Positions 26,238 through 37,549 of a DNA stretch of 64,000 bases are shown one piece after another. The position numbers and the translations under genes were made by a program. The notes beneath the pieces are model-generated. The model saw only the letters and a program-made list of their open reading frames with translations. It did not search any database and was not told the DNA's origin. This DNA is from Methylocystis sp. B8. Lineage in GTDB: Bacteria; Pseudomonadota; Alphaproteobacteria; Rhizobiales; Beijerinckiaceae. Each line of letters opens with the position of its first letter. Position 1 is the stretch's first letter. The stretch lies in contig NZ_VBTZ01000012.1 of assembly GCF_005771425.1 (NCBI RefSeq), positions 1 through 64,000 of the forward strand, read 5' to 3'.

Positions 26238-26287
26238 TGGCGTGCCCAAGGGGATTCGAACTCCTGTTTTCGCCGTGAAAGGACGAG
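26238..26287 (-). tRNA. tRNA-Glu(TTC) 3' fragment
   Basis: The minus strand carries an anticodon arm GTC-CTTTCAC-GGC with TTC in the anticodon position, a variable loop, a T arm with TTCGAAT and a 3' end GGGCACGCCA. The 5' half (acceptor, D arm) is absent. A 3' tRNA fragment ending exactly at CCA is the usual scar of integrase-mediated integration into a tRNA gene. It is not a functional tRNA. Confidence 0.7.
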
Positions 26288-26293
26288 GAGCAG

Positions 26294-27061
26294 TCAGGGA
26301 GTTGCGAATCCTATTACCGATGATTCCCAATGCTCTTCGAGATCCTCCTCTTCCGGGAAAAGAACGGCATCGAGATCGGCCTCAGGCTGCGGCCTCCCCA
26401 AAAGTCCCTCCTCTTCGAGCCGTTCGATGTCGGGGAGATCGCGCAGCGACGCGAGTCCGAAGACCTCTAGGAACTTCCTCGTGGTCACATAGGCGTAAGG
26501 CGCGCCGGGCAATGGCGCGCGCGGTCCGGCGGCAATGAGGTCGAGCGCTTTCAAGCTGCCGACGACGTCTCGGCTGATTTCTCGCCCTGCAAACTGCGAC
26601 AGTTCCGCGCGCGTCGCTGGCTGCAGATAGGCAATTGCGGTCACGGTTAGGAGTTCGGTCGGCGTCAACTGCGGCGGTCCGGCGGCGCGGGCGCCGTTGC
26701 CCAGAACGCGAATGGCGTCAGCGTAGCGCGCCTTGGTGCGCAGTTGGTAGCCGGCGGCGACATGAACCAGTTCATACGGTCTGGCGCGCAGATCGTCACG
26801 AATATCGGACATCAGATCGTCGAGATTACAGGCCCGCCCAACAAGTTTGGCCAGCGCGTCACGCGTCACCGGCGCGGGTGACGCAAAGATCGCCGCCTCG
26901 ACGCGACCCATCCATTCTCGCCAGCGCATGGCTTGCGGCAAATCCACAAGATCGGCGTCGAACAGCAGGTCGCCACCCTGCCCTGTCGCGCAACGGCTAG
27001 TCCGTGTGCGCGTCTCATCGGACGCTGCGCCCTCAGCGCGCGCCGCCTTCGTCGACCGCAT
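26294..27061 (-). CDS. scpB: ScpB-like condensin regulator
   Basis: About 255 residues with the double winged-helix fold of ScpB: VEAAIFASPAPVTRDALAKL, ARPYELVHVAAGYQLRTK, LTPTELLTVTAIAYLQPATR, GREISRDVVGSLKALDLI and YVTTRKFLEVFGLASLRDLP. ScpB acts with ScpA and SMC in chromosome condensation; plasmid-borne copies lack a local scpA. ATG at 27061 follows GGGAGGGA and is preferred to GTG 27103. It lies downstream of the DUF1403 gene on the same strand, forming a likely operon. Confidence 0.88.
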   Translation of the reverse strand: MRSTKAARAEGAASDETRTRTSRCATGQGGDLLFDADLVDLPQAMRWREWMGRVEAAIFASPAPVTRDALAKLVGRACNLDDLMSDIRDDLRARPYELVHVAAGYQLRTKARYADAIRVLGNGARAAGPPQLTPTELLTVTAIAYLQPATRAELSQFAGREISRDVVGSLKALDLIAAGPRAPLPGAPYAYVTTRKFLEVFGLASLRDLPDIERLEEEGLLGRPQPEADLDAVLFPEEEDLEEHWESSVIGFATP

Positions 27062-27133
27062 GTCGGCGTCCCTCCCATCACATTTTTTGCGCGTTTTCTT
27101 CACGCAAACCGGTTCCCACTTTGCTCGAAAACG

Positions 27134-28216
27134 CTACAGTCCATAGAGCCGAAAATTGGCGCGGCCGGTAAGTTCCCGAACGGCGCCGAGCGCGACCAGT
27201 CGATCGAACAGACGCCGCGAAGCGCGATCGGACAGGCCCGCCGCCTTCGCCGCCCGCGCCGCCGAAAGGCAATCGTCCGCAAGCAACAGATCGACGACAG
27301 GCGCGGTTTTTTTGACGCGCAATTTCGGCAAAGCGGAGAGCAGCGCTTCCGAGCGACGCGACAATTCGCTAGCAAGCGCATACGCTTCTTGCGCCGCGCG
27401 CGCATAAGCATAAGCAACGCTCAAACACCAATCTGGATCGCTGGAACGCGGTCGTCGATTGGACGCCGTGCGCACGGACGGGTGCGTGATCACCGTCGCC
27501 AAGAGCGGCAGCGCCGCCGCCCACGCGAGGCGCTGCGCCAACACAAGATCGGCGAGCCACAGCGCGAAAATTTCCGCGTCGATTCGCGGCGCGTCGTCGA
27601 GGATGTGCAGCGCTCTAGCGCTCACGCGCGCTGCGGCATTAAGCGGATTCTCGTGCGTCGACGCCTCCTGCAGAAGGGCGGCAAGGCTTTCGCAATCGAT
27701 GTGCGGCGGCAGCTCGAGACAATCGGCGGCGGCTCGCATAAACGCGGCGTCAAGCCGCGCATCGATCTGTTCCTGGCGCATCGCGAAGAGACGCCACAGG
27801 CAATGCAGCCGTCCGCCCGGCGTCGGCGCGGCGTCAAAACCGGCGAGATGTTCGGAGTCGCGCAGCGCCACTTCATCTTCGCGTAGCCGCGCCATCGCTG
27901 CACAAGCGGCAGCGGCGCGCAAAGCGAGCCGCTGGCGCAGGGTTCCGGCGAAAACGGGTTCCGCGCCTTCTTCGCCACTTCGCAAAATGCCGTCCAGCAG
28001 CACGAGACTGGCCCCGGCGGAAAAGGCGACGCCGGCGGCGGCGTCAGGGTCTTCAGCGCGGTGCGTCCTTATGCGCGCCCATCGCGGAAATCTCTGGATT
28101 TCTTGGGACTTTTGGGGGTTAACCGTATCATCGCGGCGGCTTGACGCCCGACGTTTGATCGTCGCGCGCGACGACGATTGCGCCTCAAGAACTGCGTCCG
28201 AATCAATTTTCAACAT
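27134..28216 (-). CDS. DUF1403-family protein
   Basis: 360 residues, Ala/Leu/Arg-rich and helical, with family blocks FSAGASLVLLDGIL, GRLHCLWRLFAMRQEQID and RASRRLFDRLVALGAVRELT near the C-terminus, which looks like a winged helix. DUF1403 genes sit beside scpB and a tyrosine recombinase in many alphaproteobacterial plasmids. The function is unknown; an accessory role in segregation or recombination is inferred from context. Start at 28216 has a weak RBS. Confidence 0.8.
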   Translation of the reverse strand: MLKIDSDAVLEAQSSSRATIKRRASSRRDDTVNPQKSQEIQRFPRWARIRTHRAEDPDAAAGVAFSAGASLVLLDGILRSGEEGAEPVFAGTLRQRLALRAAAACAAMARLREDEVALRDSEHLAGFDAAPTPGGRLHCLWRLFAMRQEQIDARLDAAFMRAAADCLELPPHIDCESLAALLQEASTHENPLNAAARVSARALHILDDAPRIDAEIFALWLADLVLAQRLAWAAALPLLATVITHPSVRTASNRRPRSSDPDWCLSVAYAYARAAQEAYALASELSRRSEALLSALPKLRVKKTAPVVDLLLADDCLSAARAAKAAGLSDRASRRLFDRLVALGAVRELTGRANFRLYGL

Positions 28217-28314
28217 GAAGAATCGTAGGTCCGGAACGAGTCCGGCGGCAAGGGATCACGGCGCTTTATCGCTCAGTAGCATGCCCAATCCGCCGCGCTT
28301 GTCGTCTCTTCTCG

Positions 28315-28343
28315 ATGTCCGATAATCTGCGCTTATCGGACAT
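28315..28343. promoter_or_regulatory. 29-bp palindrome, possible recombination core or operator
   Basis: ATGTCCGATAA, seven bases (TCTGCGC), TTATCGGACAT: perfect 11-bp arms. The layout, with arms ending ATAA and starting TTAT around a 6-8 bp centre, is that of Xer/dif-type recombination cores. It lies between the divergent DUF1403 and recombinase genes, 31 bp before the latter. It could instead be a repressor operator. Confidence 0.6.
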
Positions 28344-28373
28344 GATTCGAAAGCCCAACAGCGCCGCGCGAAA

Positions 28374-29576
28374 GTGACCGAAAACACCCTCCGCCAGCCT
28401 GCCGAGGCGTCGGATTTTTCACGCCCGAAACGACGCCAGACCTCAAACAGGACGCCAAACGACACCGCGATGGCCAAAATCGACGACGAACTGGAAGACG
28501 GCGGCGCGTCGCTGATTGAGCGAGCCTCAGCGCCCCATCTCGCCGCGCTTTCGGAAAAGGCGCGCGATTACGCCCGCAACGCCCGCTCAGACAACACAAA
28601 GCGCGCCTATGACGCCGATTGGCGGCAGTTTGCCGCCTGGCTGCGCCGGCAGGGGCTCGATCCCCTGCCCCCGGCTCCGCAGACCGTCGGCCTTTACCTC
28701 GCCGCGTGTGTGGACGGCGAGCGCGGTCTTGCGCCGGTTTCGGTCGCTACTTTGGAGCGGCGGCTCGCCGGCATTTGTTGGCATTACCGGCAGCGCGGCG
28801 AGCCGCTCGACACGTCCGACCGGCATATCGCGACGGTGCTCGCCGGCATTCGCCGCCGCCATGGCCGGCCACCGGCGCAGAAGGAGGCGATCTTCGCCGA
28901 TGAGCTCCTCGCCATGTTGGCGACGCTCGATATGGATCTGCGCGGGCTGCGCGACCGCGCCATTCTGGCGATCGGCTTCGCCGGCGGTCTGCGCCGCTCG
29001 GAGATCGTCGGGCTCGATTGCGGCCCCGATCAGACCGACGACGGAACCGGCTGGGTCGAGATTTACCCTCCGGCCGCCGATGTTTCGAGCAGCGGCAAAA
29101 GCACTGGCGCGGATATATCCAGCGCCAGCAACAATGACGGCGGCGTGGTGCTACAGATTTTGGGCAAGACCGGCTGGCGCGAGGTTGAAATCGGCCGCGG
29201 CTCCCGCCCCGAAACCTGCCCCGTCGCTCTGCTCGAGACCTGGATGCGGCTCGGCCGCATCCATCAGGGGCCTCTATTCCGGCCGATTGCGCGCAAGAAT
29301 GGCGGCGTTTCCGCCGAGCGGCTGACCGATAAACATGTCGCGCGTTTGGTGCAGAAAACCGCCCTCGCCGCCGGCATTCGCGGCGATCTGACCGAAGGCG
29401 AACGACATCTGGCCTTCTCTGGCCATTCGCTGCGCGCCGGCCTCGCCTCCTCGGCGCAGATCGAGGAGGCGCATGTGCAAAAACACCTCGGCCACGCCAG
29501 CCCCGAAATGACCCGGCGCTACCAGAGGAAACGCGACCGTTTCAGGGTCAATCTGACCAAGGCGGCAGGCCTTTAG
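28374..29576 (+). CDS. Tyrosine recombinase / integrase
   Basis: 400 residues. The N-terminal core-binding SAM-like domain (about 75-165; TKRAYDADWRQFAAWLRRQG) is followed by the catalytic domain with Arg (FAGGLRRSEIVGL), H-x-x-R (FSGHSLRAGLAS), the second His (KHLGHAS) and nucleophile Tyr (MTRRYQRKRD). All key residues are present. It may resolve plasmid multimers or integrate and excise the replicon. GTG at 28374 is the longest start; ATG at 28470 is possible. Divergent from DUF1403-scpB with the palindrome between them. Confidence 0.9.
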   Translation: MTENTLRQPAEASDFSRPKRRQTSNRTPNDTAMAKIDDELEDGGASLIERASAPHLAALSEKARDYARNARSDNTKRAYDADWRQFAAWLRRQGLDPLPPAPQTVGLYLAACVDGERGLAPVSVATLERRLAGICWHYRQRGEPLDTSDRHIATVLAGIRRRHGRPPAQKEAIFADELLAMLATLDMDLRGLRDRAILAIGFAGGLRRSEIVGLDCGPDQTDDGTGWVEIYPPAADVSSSGKSTGADISSASNNDGGVVLQILGKTGWREVEIGRGSRPETCPVALLETWMRLGRIHQGPLFRPIARKNGGVSAERLTDKHVARLVQKTALAAGIRGDLTEGERHLAFSGHSLRAGLASSAQIEEAHVQKHLGHASPEMTRRYQRKRDRFRVNLTKAAGL

Positions 29577-31084: not shown

Positions 31085-32455
31085 TCACCCTGCGCTCTTC
31101 CGCTCGCGCACCGCTTTCGCCGCCTTTCCGCGCAACAGCGCCATCAGCACCGGCCCAAGCGAGAATTCGCCTGCCTTCGCTTTCGCCGTCAGCACCCGCA
31201 AATAGCCGCCGGCGGATTTGATTTCCTCGCCCCGCTGCAGGATCGCAGCGATAACGATCGAGGCGTCATGTTCGCCCAGAACGTCGAGCGCCTGTTTCCA
31301 AGCGTCAGGCGAGACGCCAAGCGCCGAGCGCACAATCGCAGCTGCATCAATGAGATCGCGCCAGCAGGAAATCTCGCCCCTCTTGCCGTAATCGGTAATG
31401 TCGGGACAGGCTTGCAGCACCATGCCGAGCGGATAGGTTAGCGGCGGTGACGTTTTCCGTTCGCCGATTCCAGAATTGGGGGCCTCAGTTCCGAGAGCCC
31501 CTCCCCTGTCAGCACTCGCCTCTTCCGGCATTGGCCCGGACGTTTCGGCCCTGCCTTTTTGGAGGCTAGGTTCAAGATCAGAAATGTTTGTGATTTGATT
31601 CTGTATATGGCGCTCAGTTTGAGACTCATTGGCGCTACTTTTTTGGCCTTTTACGTGTGTTTCCAGCAGTTTCTCGATCTCGGTCGCGAAAGCCGCCAAT
31701 TCGCCTGCCAAAGCGTCGAGGTCGACCCTCCCAAGGCTGCGCGCATAGCGCCCTGCGAGAGCCTGGCAGCGCCCGTAGAGGCCTTCCCAGTCGCGAATCT
31801 CCTGCCCGTCGATCGAGAACGGCGCGAAGCGAACGCCCTCCTCCATGCCGGTCTCGATCATCTTGACAATGTCGCGCCGCACGATGGTGATCTTCTCGCG
31901 CAATAGTGCGATGGCGCGGGCCTCGGCGCGGACTTCCTCGGCGAGATTTTCGATCTCGGCCGCGCGCGCGATTAAAGGCGTCAGATCGAAGCCGAAGGCT
32001 TCCGCAATCTCGCCGCCCTGCCCTCTCCTGGCGAAGCGTTTGCCGTTCGGCGAGTCGCGCCGGATGATCAGCCCCGCCTCGACGAGCGAAGCGAGATGAC
32101 GGCGCAACGTCGCCGGCGCCATGCCATGAGCGCGGATCAAGAGTTCCCTATTCGACGGAAAAACCACGATCCCGGGAGCCGGTGAATCGCCCTGCCCCTC
32201 CCCGGCTTCGATCTCTGGAAGCGTTAGCGCCGTTTCCTGATGGAAACTAAGCAAGGCATGCAAGACCGACAGCGCCCGGTCGGTGACGCCGAGCGGCCCT
32301 TTGGCTTCCGTGAGCGCGCGAAACAGCCGCCATTTATGGACGACGGTCTCGGACGCGTCGGGTCTTGCCGCGAAATCTCTCGTCGCCGCCTGCGCCGCCA
32401 CCATGGCGAGCGACAACGGCCGCCGCCCAAAGGGCGTCGTTGGATATGAGCGCAT
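31085..32455 (-). CDS. repC: RepC replication initiator
   Basis: 456 residues. N-terminal half has the RepC winged-helix region (VFPSNRELLIRAHGMAPATL, RRHLASLVEAGLIIRRDSPN, GKRFARRG). A linker of low conservation (about 280-340) is followed by a C-terminal block (GVSPDAWKQALDVLGEHDAS, AGGYLRVLTAKAKAGEFSLG). RepC is the initiator of repABC plasmids, with the origin usually inside its own gene. RBS AAAGGA before the ATG. Separated from repB by 188 bp holding a counter-transcribed RNA. Confidence 0.93.
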   Translation of the reverse strand: MRSYPTTPFGRRPLSLAMVAAQAATRDFAARPDASETVVHKWRLFRALTEAKGPLGVTDRALSVLHALLSFHQETALTLPEIEAGEGQGDSPAPGIVVFPSNRELLIRAHGMAPATLRRHLASLVEAGLIIRRDSPNGKRFARRGQGGEIAEAFGFDLTPLIARAAEIENLAEEVRAEARAIALLREKITIVRRDIVKMIETGMEEGVRFAPFSIDGQEIRDWEGLYGRCQALAGRYARSLGRVDLDALAGELAAFATEIEKLLETHVKGQKSSANESQTERHIQNQITNISDLEPSLQKGRAETSGPMPEEASADRGGALGTEAPNSGIGERKTSPPLTYPLGMVLQACPDITDYGKRGEISCWRDLIDAAAIVRSALGVSPDAWKQALDVLGEHDASIVIAAILQRGEEIKSAGGYLRVLTAKAKAGEFSLGPVLMALLRGKAAKAVRERKSAG

Positions 32456-32643: not shown

Positions 32644-33627
32644 CTACGCACTACGTGTGCGGAATTCTTCATAAAGGTCGCTTAGACGCTCGACGACAAA
32701 CGCACCAAAATCAGGTTCAACTTTCTCGTCGAAGCGCAATACGGTCGCCTTGGGATCGCGGCTAATTCGCGCCAGAGCCGCACCATCCGGCCGCTTCCAA
32801 ACCTCATCGCGCACGATCTTTGACGCCTTTTCCATAGCCGCCGCAAACGCCTTCAGAAATCGGGCGTCGGTGTCCGCCGGCAAATTTGTGTCGGAAAGGA
32901 CATTCTCGACTCGAACAAGCGTCTTCCGCGCACGCAAAAGCTCGGCGAACTGCAACCAACGCCGCCGGCCCGCCTTCGGCGCCGGCCCGATCGCGCGAAC
33001 TATTGACTCAGGCAGCGCACGCGCGACCGTGATCAACTTCGAAAGCTCAGTTTTATCAGTCGAGAGCGCGGCCATAATGACGCTGCGGTCATGCCCGCTG
33101 TCTTCAAGGGATTTTGCGAAAATGGCCCGCTCGATGAAGGATAGATCTCGCCTCGCGGAATTTTCGATGCCTTGAGCAACGATCAGCTGTCGATCATCGA
33201 GATTGCGCACGACAGCTTTGATCTTGATCCCGAGGTCTTGCGCTGCCTTTAAACGCCGATGCCCGTATGCAGCTTGATAGGCACCGCTGCGGATTGGGTG
33301 CGGCCTCACAAGAATCGGCACTTCTTGGCCGTGAGAGCGCAGCGACTCCTTGAGCGTCTGAAATTCTGGATCGTCAGTACCCGAAAATCTGTCTCTAATG
33401 AAAGAAACGTCGACGCATTCGGGATCCAGTTCGATCACCGCCGCGCCAGTCGCGAGCGCCTCTTGAAGAGTGCGAGACTCTTCGGCCATACGATCCAGCG
33501 TTAGGCTCATTGTCCTCACCGGCCCTGCGAGAACCCTGTCTTTGCTTTGCGCGCTAGGGCGATCAGATGAGTTGGCCGCGGCCAACTTGCCCTCGAGTAG
33601 CGAGGTCAAAATGTTTCGTCGGGTCAT
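32644..33627 (-). CDS. repB: RepB partition protein (ParB family)
   Basis: 327 residues from ATG 33627, which overlaps the repA stop (ATGA). It has an N-terminal RepA-interaction segment (TRRNILTSLLEGK), a ParB domain (LRSHGQEVPILVRPHP, AAYGHRRLKAAQDLGIKIKA), the ENSARRDLSFIERAIFAK helix and a helix-turn-helix. RepB binds parS and loads onto DNA with RepA for segregation. One parS lies inside its own 5' end (33571-33586). Confidence 0.93.
   Translation of the reverse strand: MTRRNILTSLLEGKLAAANSSDRPSAQSKDRVLAGPVRTMSLTLDRMAEESRTLQEALATGAAVIELDPECVDVSFIRDRFSGTDDPEFQTLKESLRSHGQEVPILVRPHPIRSGAYQAAYGHRRLKAAQDLGIKIKAVVRNLDDRQLIVAQGIENSARRDLSFIERAIFAKSLEDSGHDRSVIMAALSTDKTELSKLITVARALPESIVRAIGPAPKAGRRRWLQFAELLRARKTLVRVENVLSDTNLPADTDARFLKAFAAAMEKASKIVRDEVWKRPDGAALARISRDPKATVLRFDEKVEPDFGAFVVERLSDLYEEFRTRSA
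33571..33586. promoter_or_regulatory. parS: parS centromere site 1
   Basis: GTTGGCCGCGGCCAAC, a perfect palindrome matching the repABC parS consensus GTTNNNNGCNNNNAAC, inside the 5' end of repB. Confidence 0.9.
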
Positions 33628-34835
33628 GGAACCCGTCCCCATGTTCGAAGAATCAGCCCGAGAATTTCGCTATTGACCGCTTCCAAAGACTCGATCGCGC
33701 GGTCATAGGTCGCGCGCCCTATCGCCCCGCGTTCGAGCTCGTATAGCGATTGCTTGGTGAGACCCGCGTCGGCAATGGCTGTCGACTTCCAGGCCGAAGC
33801 CGCGAGAACCTCTTCACCAAAAAGGTTACGGAGAAGAGCGACAACCTGCGACTGCGGCCCATCATGCGGCTCGTGTCGTGTGACCACATAGCGAATAAAG
33901 TCGTGACGTAGGTCGCCGCCGGCTTTTCGCACAACCGTCATTAAGTCGGAGGCCATCAGCAGGAATTGCGACATGGACGCCACGTCCACCATCTGCGGAT
34001 GAATCGTGATCAGAAGCGCCGTTGCCGCGCAGAGCGCACCAAGCGTCAAATAGCCCAGCTGAGGCGGGCAATCGACCACAACGATATCGTAATCCGCTTC
34101 AATCTCAGCGAGCGCGTTGCCTACCCTTTCGAAGAACATGCCGCCTGGCAGTCGCGAACTAAGAGCCAGCGCTCGCGGCGTTTCATGTTCGAACTCCATG
34201 AGCTCAAGATTGCCAGGAATTAGATCCAGTCCGTCAAAATAGGTCTTGCGAATGCAGTCCCGGACGGGACGACGGTCGTTTTCATACCGAATCGCCCCAA
34301 AAATCGTGTCGCCTTCCTTGAGGTCGAATTCCGGCTGCAAGCCAAGCATAGCCGACAGGGATGCCTGAGGGTCGAGATCGACCGCAAGCACTCGAAATCC
34401 CGACATCGCTAAATATTGGGCAAGATACAGACACGTCGTCGTTTTTGCTGAGCCACCCTTAAAATTGACGCAGGCTATGGTCTGCATTTTTTCGCCAGCG
34501 CGACGGTGGGGCAAAACGGACAGCGCTTCGCGTGGCTTCACCATCGCAATGTGCCTGCGCAGCTCATTAATTTGTGCGAGTGTATAGGATCGTCTCCCAG
34601 AGGCGCTTATTTCAGGCGCAGGCCCAATCCCGTCGAGAGAGAGCTGCCGGAGATATCCGTCCGATACATGCAAGAGTTTGGCGGCTTCCCCCGATGAAAA
34701 GGAGCGGAGTGATTTGTGACTGTCCGGAGGGAAAAGTCGGGAGCCGAGCGCCTGAAGCTGTTCGGACAACAGGCGAGCGTGCGCGGAAATTCGCGCATCT
34801 GATGTTGCCGTCGCCTCAATTGTCTGCGCGCCCAC
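33624..34835 (-). CDS. repA: RepA partition ATPase (ParA family)
   Basis: 403 residues. An N-terminal helix-turn-helix region (SSGEAAKLLHVSDGYLRQL) is followed by a ParA ATPase with the deviant Walker A FKGGSAKTTT, Walker A' VLAVDLDPQASL and Walker B IVVVDCPPQLG. RepA drives plasmid partition and represses the operon. Coupled to repB by ATGA. The first gene of repABC; the parS site at 34971 lies 135 bp upstream, where RepA/RepB can act on the promoter. Confidence 0.93.
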   Translation of the reverse strand: MGAQTIEATATSDARISAHARLLSEQLQALGSRLFPPDSHKSLRSFSSGEAAKLLHVSDGYLRQLSLDGIGPAPEISASGRRSYTLAQINELRRHIAMVKPREALSVLPHRRAGEKMQTIACVNFKGGSAKTTTCLYLAQYLAMSGFRVLAVDLDPQASLSAMLGLQPEFDLKEGDTIFGAIRYENDRRPVRDCIRKTYFDGLDLIPGNLELMEFEHETPRALALSSRLPGGMFFERVGNALAEIEADYDIVVVDCPPQLGYLTLGALCAATALLITIHPQMVDVASMSQFLLMASDLMTVVRKAGGDLRHDFIRYVVTRHEPHDGPQSQVVALLRNLFGEEVLAASAWKSTAIADAGLTKQSLYELERGAIGRATYDRAIESLEAVNSEILGLILRTWGRVP

Positions 34836-36315: not shown

Positions 36316-37494
36316 TCAGCCCTGCAGCGGCGCCGTTCCTTCGTTGAGGATGTCGAGGTAAGCGCGGTAGCTGAAAACGCGCCCCCGGCGACGCCCCGTT
36401 ATCTCGCTGACGACGCCAAGACGCTCGAGATCGGCCAGTGCGGCGTTGACGGTGGGCGCTGTTAGACCGGCACTAAGGACAAGGTCGTTTGCTGTGGCAA
36501 AAGGATGCTGCTGGAGCAGGTCGTGAATGCGCAGCGCGGACCCGGCCCGTTCGCTCTCCGTCGCAATGCGCGCCCGATCCTTCGCGAATAGATCGGCGAT
36601 TCGCACCGCCGCATCGAAGGCCTGATTCGCCGTCTCCGCGACGCCGTCGAGGAAGAATTCGAGCCACGCCTCCCAAGCGCCGTTCTCGCGGACTTCCTGT
36701 AGCAAGCGATAATAGTCGGTGCGGCGCGTTTTCAGATAGAGGCTGAGATAGAGAAGGGGGTTGTGCAGCACGCCATTGGCGCAAAGAAAGAGCGTCACCA
36801 GAAGGCGTCCGACACGACCATTGCCGTCGAGAAAAGGATGGATGGTCTCGAACTGGACGTGGAGCAGGCCGGCCTTGATCAGCGGCGGCAGTCGCGACTC
36901 CGTCTCGTGGAAGAACCGCTCGAACGCGTCGAGGCAGGCGTCGAGCTCGCTAACAGGCGGCGGCACGAACAGCGCGTTACCAGGCCTCGTCCCGCCAATC
37001 CAATTTTGCGAACGACGAAATTCCCCAGGGTCTTTCGTCTCGCCGCGCCCGCTCTGCAGGAGACGCGCATGCAGGTCGCGAATGAGCCGTAGCGACAGCG
37101 GGAACTCTTTGAGGCGATCCAGACCGAACATCATCGCATCGACATAATTCGAGACTTCGCGAATGTCGTCGATCGGCTGGCCAGAGTGAGCCCCGGTCTC
37201 AAAGCGCAGAAGGTCCGCGAGCGTCGACTGGGTTCCCTCGATTTGCGATGAAAGCACCGCCTCCTTGCGAACATACATGTAGAGAAAGAGCTCCTGCCGC
37301 GGCAGAAGCACGGCGGCGCCGTCAAGACGACCGAGCGCCCGCTCGGCCGCGCTCAAGCGATCCAGTAGCGGGAGCAGGTTAATCTCAGGCTTTGGCGGCA
37401 AAGGCGGGGGAACGAAGGCGCGCACCAATTCTCCGCCGGCAGGCGTTTCCACGAAGCGGCAGAGTCGGGAGTTTTCTGGGGTGAGGGCGCTCAT
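36316..37494 (-). CDS. Fic-family protein with C-terminal winged helix
   Basis: 392 residues from ATG 37494. An N-terminal inhibitory helix with SSQIEGT (class II [S/T]xxxE[G/N] motif) precedes the Fic core with intact catalytic loop HPFLDGNGRVGR. The C-terminal winged helix ends LERLGVVSEITGRRRGRVFS. Fic enzymes transfer AMP from ATP to target hydroxyls; this build (Fic plus DNA-binding tail) is common on plasmids and probably self-regulating. An inverted repeat lies 24 bp upstream of the ATG and fits autoregulation. Confidence 0.9.
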   Translation of the reverse strand: MSALTPENSRLCRFVETPAGGELVRAFVPPPLPPKPEINLLPLLDRLSAAERALGRLDGAAVLLPRQELFLYMYVRKEAVLSSQIEGTQSTLADLLRFETGAHSGQPIDDIREVSNYVDAMMFGLDRLKEFPLSLRLIRDLHARLLQSGRGETKDPGEFRRSQNWIGGTRPGNALFVPPPVSELDACLDAFERFFHETESRLPPLIKAGLLHVQFETIHPFLDGNGRVGRLLVTLFLCANGVLHNPLLYLSLYLKTRRTDYYRLLQEVRENGAWEAWLEFFLDGVAETANQAFDAAVRIADLFAKDRARIATESERAGSALRIHDLLQQHPFATANDLVLSAGLTAPTVNAALADLERLGVVSEITGRRRGRVFSYRAYLDILNEGTAPLQG

Positions 37495-37517
37495 CATCGA
37501 AGCATGCCCCAAGCTTC

Positions 37518-37549
37518 TTATTTAAGCAATCATACCCCCACTTAAATAA
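37518..37549 (-). promoter_or_regulatory. Inverted-repeat operator upstream of fic
   Basis: TTATTTAAG (37518-37526) and CTTAAATAA (37541-37549) are exact reverse complements, 14 bp apart. A further TTAAG-GTGG-CTTAA lies at about 37563. The arms are A/T-rich in a GC-rich region, which makes chance unlikely. Confidence 0.65.

Follow-up and report, generated by a model that had tools for sequence, protein, structure and literature searches.

The window analysed here, a stretch of 64,000 nucleotides of Methylocystis sp. B8 DNA, carries two genes on its minus strand, scpB, coding for a plasmid paralogue of ScpB (26294..27061; PF04079, E 8e-33), and a DUF1403 gene (27134..28216; PF07183, E 3.5e-65), which diverge from a tyrosine recombinase gene on the plus strand (28374..29576; PF00589, E 2.4e-12), below called REC. 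The distance from the ATG of DUF1403 to the GTG of REC is 157 bases, and profile matches bore out the three genes and the short gap claimed in an earlier sequence-only reading of this DNA. Between the divergent genes lies, at 28315..28343, the sequence ATGTCCGATAA-TCTGCGC-TTATCGGACAT, an exact 11-7-11 palindrome, just as perfect as that reading had described it, with ATGTCCGATAA and TTATCGGACAT as arms and TCTGCGC as the centre of the proposed core site of REC. Downstream of scpB there is a 3' fragment of tRNA-Glu(TTC) (26238..26286, minus strand), and about 1.5 kb away from the module a repABC replicon is found on the minus strand, with repC (31085..32455; named by homology to annotated RepC genes), repB (32644..33642) and repA (33624..34835), together with the antisense ctRNA RF00489 (32558..32603, plus strand) and the S-element RF00490 (32453-32516, minus strand). 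Such surroundings are common: of the 80 REC loci that were retained from public genomes, 61 have repABC matches. One REC-site-DUF1403-scpB module is matched over at least 80% by 186 plasmid records, and 713 plasmid records have a DUF1403 match, which is a count of DUF1403 alone and not of REC.

Judging by homology, REC more likely starts with the ATG at 28470 than with the GTG at 28374, from which its predicted catalytic residues R207, K265, H351, R354, H374 and Y383 are numbered. The first five (R, K, H, R, H) are kept in 59 of 59 loci and the tyrosine in 58 of 59, as expected for a tyrosine recombinase, and the score against PF00589 (47.4 bits, curated cut-off 27.1) places REC within the Cre/Xer superfamily. 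It is not an orthologue of XerC or XerD: the equivalog profiles TIGR02224 and TIGR02225 gave 40.3 and 38.2 bits, far under their cut-offs of 335.15 and 329.6. Among solved structures the nearest to REC by sequence are Cre (E 6e-8), which is the best match though only remotely related, and XerD (1e-4).

With 10-base arms and up to 3 mismatches the palindrome was the sole match in the window, and shuffles gave 0 of 100; a search of the 3.4-Mb genome with full arms at the same tolerance found one further occurrence, C2:94920, inside a second scpB-DUF1403-recombinase set, while the reversed-pattern control of this search gave 0 matches. In public genomes the site (≤3 mismatches) was detected in 66 of the 80 REC loci and in 53 of 54 loci with detected DUF1403, the latter count being partly circular because the site pattern derives in part from those loci; the reversed-sequence control, run over 925,563 bases, produced a single match at ≤4 mismatches. 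No site was found in 14 of the 80 REC loci; records of five of these begin ≤16 bases from REC, eight have 0.7–5.9 kb upstream, and one of the 14, L066, has a centre of 4 bp. In L071, L098 and L105, the three loci where the genes were read, another, diverged recombinase is likewise preceded by an 11-7-11 palindrome of its own.

Each replicon usually contains one module site, and among 24 plasmid records there were no two site matches in one record with a common centre. The two plasmids of our strain differ in this respect (TCTGCGC and TGTGGGC, the latter at C2:94920), and a rule that co-resident plasmids differ in their centres was considered. It was dropped, as both M. parvus plasmids have the centre TGTGCGC and the centres of both loci of Methylocystis sp. 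H62 are identical. With identical centres on co-resident plasmids, fusion between plasmids would therefore be permitted.

Covariation was studied starting from 96 loci, of which 59 remained after those below the score limits for REC, DUF1403 or ScpB, or having no site, were dropped, and 55 after removal of near-identical ones. Despite its place beside DUF1403 the site follows in sequence REC and neither DUF1403 nor ScpB. For 39 non-redundant loci from outside the Methylocystaceae the partial correlation of site with REC, given DUF1403, was 0.51 (p 0.0005), and that of site with DUF1403, given REC, was −0.01. In 16 Methylocystaceae loci, whose arms are almost invariant, only the arm on the REC side follows REC (0.47); the one on the DUF1403 side does not (0.09). 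The flank on the DUF1403 side correlates with DUF1403 (r 0.59) more than with REC (0.26), and that on the REC side with REC (0.35) rather than with DUF1403 (0.05); between the two flanks there is hardly any agreement (r 0.07). The two halves of the module are inherited almost independently, with r 0.14 for DUF1403 and REC versus 0.67 for DUF1403 and ScpB.

These data bear on the possibility that the palindrome is an operator of the divergent promoters, bound by the winged helix modelled at the C-terminus of DUF1403 or by some other regulator, while REC acts elsewhere. Its location fits such a role: in 52 loci the site lies between DUF1403 and REC at a median of 70 bp (10–194) upstream of the DUF1403 profile start, and it stays near DUF1403 even in the 14 of these 52 where REC is more than 500 bp (up to 5.3 kb) off. 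One S. medicae plasmid kept site and DUF1403 without a close REC. However, on Aminobacter pSR1 the site adjoins REC, and DUF1403-scpB, 71 kb away, has none; REC with its site was also found without adjacent DUF1403, and DUF1403-scpB without a nearby site, so this pair is associated with REC yet separable. Because the site follows REC and, as described below, breakpoints fall inside it, a role as operator only was rejected as the main reading and seems improbable to us, though the palindrome may be in dual use, as recombination site and operator.

Comparison of related plasmids revealed natural breakpoints inside the site, as strand exchange there would leave them. In a Shinella pair, 4554 bp of 100% identity begin with the sixth base of the arm on the REC side, and in S. 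meliloti/medicae the joint is at this same base in five records (98.0–98.7% identity), in one of which REC is 78.5% identical. The mirror case is provided by seven records, some of them near-copies, whose similarity (84–92% over 58–81 bases) stops in the DUF1403-side arm. A hybrid site was registered at L073:4325. Many related records have no such joint and run unbroken across the site, among them two from Devosia and, in the S. meliloti/medicae comparison, 26 of 238 records that span 80% or more of the query. For M. rosea, exchange among copies of a transposon may confound the breakpoint, and a Sulfitobacter query for further breakpoints gave only distant matches, none of them informative.

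One could suppose from such joints that the main job of the system is fusion of plasmids and exchange between them, i.e. cointegration and backbone shuffling, rather than resolution; the chemistry is common to both and only the purpose differs. The nearly independent inheritance of the two sides, the hybrid site and the identical DUF1403 sides carried by two plasmids of a single Shinella strain, where the joint falls in the site, are in line with this idea. Yet fusion is expected as a by-product of a chemistry that gives both outcomes, and the usual single module site per replicon fits resolution, so we regard fusion as the main purpose as unlikely, albeit worth keeping in mind.

Transposons of the tniABQ type repeatedly adjoin the site: TniB was found within 3.5 kb of it in 5 of 18 places with 0.61 expected, the 22 TniB rows having been merged by hand into 18 places and the 3.5-kb limit set after the places had been seen. 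No target duplication was seen when the flanks of the tni elements were inspected by eye. These elements are relatives of known “res-site hunters”, Tn402/Tn5053, which insert at the res sites of resolvases (PMC7765201). The likeness consists in insertion of tniABQ elements beside a resolution site, and the difference is that the site here belongs to a tyrosine recombinase and theirs to a resolvase; the word “tyrosine” does not occur in that paper. Tn402-type integrons are located inside islands carrying tyrosine integrases, and the accessible part of the source describes no insertion at these integrases' own sites (PMC8373256). Among the matches listed in the literature there was no precedent for tni insertion beside the site of a tyrosine recombinase, though one may exist. 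The data suggest that tni transposons can home on sites of this kind as well.

Among known systems Cre/loxP, which serves plasmid multimer resolution in phage P1, is alike in having one tyrosine recombinase and a palindromic site whose short centre is asymmetric, and a palindromic core site adjacent to the recombinase gene and conserved across plasmids is just what was found here. The geometry of loxP is 13-8-13 instead of 11-7-11, and REC, unlike Cre, is accompanied by DUF1403, ScpB and repABC. XerS/difSL and XerH/difH share with REC a single recombinase and a site next to its gene, but the REC module is plasmid-borne and its arms are nearly symmetrical. Half-sites of 11 bp with a centre of 6–8 bp are the typical Xer dimensions (PMC5357621). 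This geometry makes it conceivable that host XerC/XerD serve the palindrome, like cer or psi, while REC has another substrate; the inner arm ends ATAA/TTAT, as in dif, can be counted in its favour. Nevertheless, a dif/XerCD site has a 6-bp centre and distinct XerC and XerD arms, the nearly symmetrical arms and 7-bp centre here are unlike sites of two recombinases, and the site covaries with the plasmid-encoded REC, so service by the host enzymes appears very improbable. A dif-like pattern search of our own genome returned nothing, with the host dif itself among the misses.

Similar in context is S. meliloti pSmeLPU88b, where a Cre-like recombinase downstream of repABC, with toxin-antitoxin genes beside it, was proposed for concatemer resolution (PMC10194956). 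It resembles REC by description; no recombination site is given in the accessible part of that paper, and ScpB and DUF1403 have 0 occurrences in the main text. RinQ of R. etli, cited there, is likewise encoded near repABC, but by that account it belongs to the invertase/resolvase (gamma-delta) family.

The tRNA-Glu(TTC) 3' fragment beside scpB, which the sequence-only reading had reported, is real: of the 49 bases at 26238-26286, 46 agree with an intact tRNA-Glu(TTC) of the chromosome, while ARAGORN found no complete tRNA in the window. It might hint that REC is an integrase putting the plasmid into the chromosome, either here or at the palindrome. But the chromosomal tRNA-Glu, which marks one limit of a stretch of 16.5 kb with a second fragment at its other limit, is adjoined by a large serine recombinase (class read from the sequence), an enzyme of a class other than that of REC, and the fragment accompanies scpB in only a few Methylocystis-type loci. 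For both reasons it was discarded as an attachment site of REC, and its patchy occurrence makes it unlike a part of the module; it is probably an inherited integration scar. Integration at the palindrome is unsupported because our genome contains no occurrence at ≤3 mismatches beyond the two module sites. Chromosomal integration as the task of REC is thus barely credible.

DUF1403, a term found in no paper of the literature searched, has no sequence relatives in PDB at E≤1, and its model appears to combine a Fic-like helical fold without the Fic motif with a C-terminal winged helix. Foldseek gave 7 matches at E≤0.001, all of them Fic structures (TM by query 0.45–0.56); a viral fold library gave no match at E≤0.001. 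The Fic motif HxFx[D/E]GN[G/K]R was present in 0 of 39 DUF1403 sequences (two truncated models, L070 and L104, of an original 41 having been excluded from the structure alignment), and the DUF1403 profile matched the window's true Fic protein at the C-terminus only, with a probability of 5.7%. DUF1612 was tried as a possible sister family with ScpB and rejected, since none of its 12 loci (2.6–3.4 kb) had a ScpB match. The plasmid ScpB does contain the ScpB domain (113.7 bits against PF04079, cut-off 27.4) and its profile matches solved ScpB structures, e.g. 3w6j, but against the TIGR00281 equivalog it scores 74.9 bits, below the 89.2 cut-off. The chromosome has its own scpB, preceded by an open reading frame that presumably codes for ScpA; the neighbour of the plasmid gene is DUF1403 and not scpA. 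Most likely, products of the DUF1403-scpB operon would be DNA-binding accessory proteins tuning the module or plasmid segregation. The sequence-only reading supposed that these two proteins connect recombination with condensation or segregation; such a connection would be conjectural, as the pair also occurs apart from REC.

Based on the covariation with REC, the breakpoints in the site, the adjoining transposons and the position by repABC, the palindrome is very probably the crossover site of REC itself. By analogy with Cre/loxP or the Xer systems that use one recombinase, two REC protomers would bind the two 11-bp arms, and two sites would synapse and exchange strands over their 7-bp centres. 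If the sites are directly repeated within a dimer or cointegrate, monomers would result, and sites on different plasmids would give cointegrates and, over time, mosaic backbones. We infer cleavage and the physiological role from these comparisons, multimer or cointegrate resolution being the likeliest use; of the two functions at the palindrome offered by the sequence-only reading, resolution of multimers gained support and integration of the replicon did not, given only two module sites. With good probability this is a self-contained and apparently undescribed Cre/lox-like resolution system with one recombinase, carried by repABC plasmids, which most likely separates joined plasmids. A more far-reaching and rather speculative version is that the ScpB paralogue and DUF1403, as a catalytically dead Fic-fold winged-helix protein, control REC so that only sister sites are licensed, perhaps via host SMC-ScpA, coupling dimer resolution to condensin-driven segregation in a widespread undescribed system, whose site would also be a tni target and a joint of repABC backbone shuffling.

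Alphaproteobacteria commonly carry large repABC plasmids, whose multimer resolution is, to our knowledge, little described. The REC-site module would explain mosaic joints at one precise spot, gives DUF1403 a first structural idea and context, and offers for these plasmids a recombinase-site pair that can be tested.

The scpB, DUF1403 and tyrosine recombinase genes claimed by the sequence-only reading were all confirmed in the window, which lies on the 90,727-base contig C4 of this genome. The recombinase is Cre-like (REC, 28374-29576, plus strand) and is separated from repC by 1.5 kb, while both the ctRNA and the S-element of repABC are located between repB and repC. The palindrome with 11-base arms and a 7-base centre (28315-28343, hereafter the site) is exact, as had been described, and no match to it appeared in 100 shuffles of the window. 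With up to 3 mismatches allowed, its full arms recurred in the 3.4-Mb genome only once, on the 114-kb contig C2, which is probably circular, judging from a 123-base overlap of its terminal sequences. That copy belongs to a second scpB-DUF1403-REC set with REC 82% identical, and the two centres are unlike (TCTGCGC in the window vs TGTGGGC on C2). The genome also contains a 16.5-kb stretch (C1:693934-710512, corresponding to locus L171:1435-18013), which is flanked by an intact tRNA-Glu and by a fragment of such a gene and carries a recombinase, classed from sequence as large serine, whose reading frame extends into the tRNA gene.

Scanning of genome contigs with a REC alignment gave at least 594 stretches, 448 of which encode a relative; only the best 80 of these 448 were kept, and the set is therefore biased to close relatives. 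Matches to repABC were registered within the fetched flank of 61 of the 80 loci. The site pattern, drawn from the first loci and then applied to all 80 with no more than 3 mismatches, showed that the palindrome sought in homologous loci is kept in 66 of them, including 53 of the 54 with detected DUF1403; the sole exception, L066, has the arms but a 4-base centre. Among the 14 loci with no site, five start no more than 16 bases from REC; another eight extend 0.7-5.9 kb upstream of it. The consensus reads AYGWMYGRTAA-N7-TTAYCRKWCRT, with TCTTGCA or TGTTGCA as the commonest centres outside Methylocystaceae and TGTGCGC or TGTGGGC within. All 17 plasmid records first examined contain the site, and six also hold extra matches at 2-3 mismatches.

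In 52 loci the site lies 10-194 bp from the start of the DUF1403 profile, while REC may be as far as 5.3 kb away, and for this reason an operator upstream of DUF1403 became the main rival of a crossover site. These alternatives were compared by covariation in 59 loci having REC, DUF1403, ScpB and the site, of which 55 (16 of Methylocystaceae type and 39 others) remained after removal of near-identical ones. In the 39 loci distances of DUF1403 and ScpB are correlated (r 0.67), and those of REC are nearly independent of both (r 0.14 and 0.11, respectively). Contrary to what an operator would suggest, both arms and centre track REC, not DUF1403 or ScpB: the partial correlation of the whole site with REC given DUF1403 is 0.51 (p 0.0005), and with DUF1403 given REC it is −0.01. 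The 60-base flank on the DUF1403 side follows DUF1403 (r 0.59; 0.26 with REC), that on the REC side follows REC (r 0.35; 0.05 with DUF1403), and the flanks barely correlate with each other (r 0.07, p 0.09). Thus, haplotypes switch at or close to the site, whose letters follow REC. Arms are nearly invariant among the 16 Methylocystaceae loci; of the two, the one on the REC side follows REC (r 0.47) and the one on the DUF1403 side does not (r 0.09), and DUF1403 correlates with REC at r 0.45.

Breakpoints were found inside the site itself. Two plasmids of one Shinella strain are identical over 4554 bases, the first of which is the sixth base of the REC-side arm, with no similarity past this point in the 3.3 kb fetched. 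Five S. meliloti/medicae records are 98.0-98.7% identical to the query from the same base onward; one has a REC 78.5% identical and another lacks a close REC. Seven more records, some of them near-copies, match the Shinella query on its REC side alone, for 58-81 bases, and break off in the other arm. The sequence in common comprises the inner arms and centre, about 18 bases, which is presumably too short for ordinary homologous recombination. Unbroken alignments across the site also occur: of 238 records, 26 cover at least 80% of the S. meliloti/medicae query, and two Devosia records align in this way with the Shinella one. M. rosea pGW6_2 and BRCS1 are 99.8% vs 81.5% identical on the two sides of the site; flanks may have been exchanged between transposon copies of that strain.

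A second 11-7-11 palindrome, ACYATCGATAA-N7-TTATCGATRGT, was found at L049:7328, L071:7229, L083:2834, L098:5262, L104:6792 and L105:10031. In the three loci with genes read (L071, L098, L105) it is followed by a second tyrosine recombinase, diverged from REC, in L071 behind an intervening gene. At L073:4325-4353 a hybrid site, which combines an arm of the first palindrome with an arm of the second, adjoins the second recombinase as well. This second pair supports the assignment of such palindromes to recombinases. REC and the site occur without adjacent DUF1403 in L060, L064, L073, L081, L090 and L091; in Aminobacter pSR1 they adjoin repABC, with DUF1403-scpB 71 kb off, and two Shinella plasmids have DUF1403-scpB with no site nearby. 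None of 24 plasmid records contains two site matches with the same centre, and in the only one with two DUF1403-linked sites the centres differ and orientations are opposite. In several loci (e.g. L015, L170, L190) VapB or VapBC toxin-antitoxin genes were seen on the REC side, between the site and REC or its remnant.

According to one report, Tn5053-type elements prefer res sites with their resolvase (PMC7765201). Transposons of tniABQ type separate the site from REC in pGW6_1, pGW6_2 and MJC1 unnamed2, the last of which carries a tandem pair. In S. medicae ml29 one such element occupies the REC side; a relative devoid of it loses similarity at a distance of 59 bases from the site, and the ml29 plasmid retains no close REC. 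Five of 18 TniB places (17 records) are within 3.5 kb of the site against 0.61 expected, and 13 are farther; the P of 0.0002 assumes independent places and is over-optimistic given shared copies and the post hoc 3.5-kb limit. Target duplications were looked for at these elements, and none were found. Copies of tniABQ with scpB-DUF1403-site-REC, 97-100% identical, are present in L167 and in the R. leguminosarum plasmid records CP016287, CP016290 and CP016292, four replicons which apparently belong to a single strain; it looks as though the module travels with the transposon.

The AlphaFold2 model of DUF1403, built with 39 sequences (pLDDT 87, pTM 0.86), gave seven Foldseek hits in PDB at E<=0.001, all of them Fic proteins, with query TM of 0.45-0.56, 12-16% identity and large rmsd; the Fic motif is absent from all 39 sequences, and 14 of them show weak similarity to a winged-helix family. 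The plasmid ScpB has matches among solved structures of ScpB, and a separate chromosomal scpB adjoins an ORF which we take to be ScpA. Based on the Fic-like fold and the winged-helix and ScpB matches, plasmid DUF1403 and ScpB look like DNA-binding accessories. A true Fic protein with the HPFLDGNGR motif is encoded upstream of repABC (36319-37521, minus strand); its winged-helix-like C-terminal region is weakly similar to the C-terminus of DUF1403.

DUF1403 of the window matched 24 plasmid records and that of R. johnstonii pRL10 matched 713; in 186 plasmid records the match covers at least 80% of the REC-site-DUF1403-scpB stretch of pRL10. Matches to DUF1403 were registered in 27 of 397 genomes of the same order, our own included (24 above cut-off), and in none of 14 control genomes. 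The literature searched, which took in few subscription papers, contained no mention of DUF1403, no paper with "SMC-Scp complex subunit ScpB" together with "plasmid", and, among 10 papers retrieved for the two terms, none combining ScpB with repABC. In S. meliloti, a Cre-like recombinase accompanied by toxin-antitoxin genes has already been noted downstream of repABC, in a report with no occurrence of ScpB or DUF1403 (PMC10194956). We file the module among resolution systems of Cre/Xer type, as a variant with features new to them.
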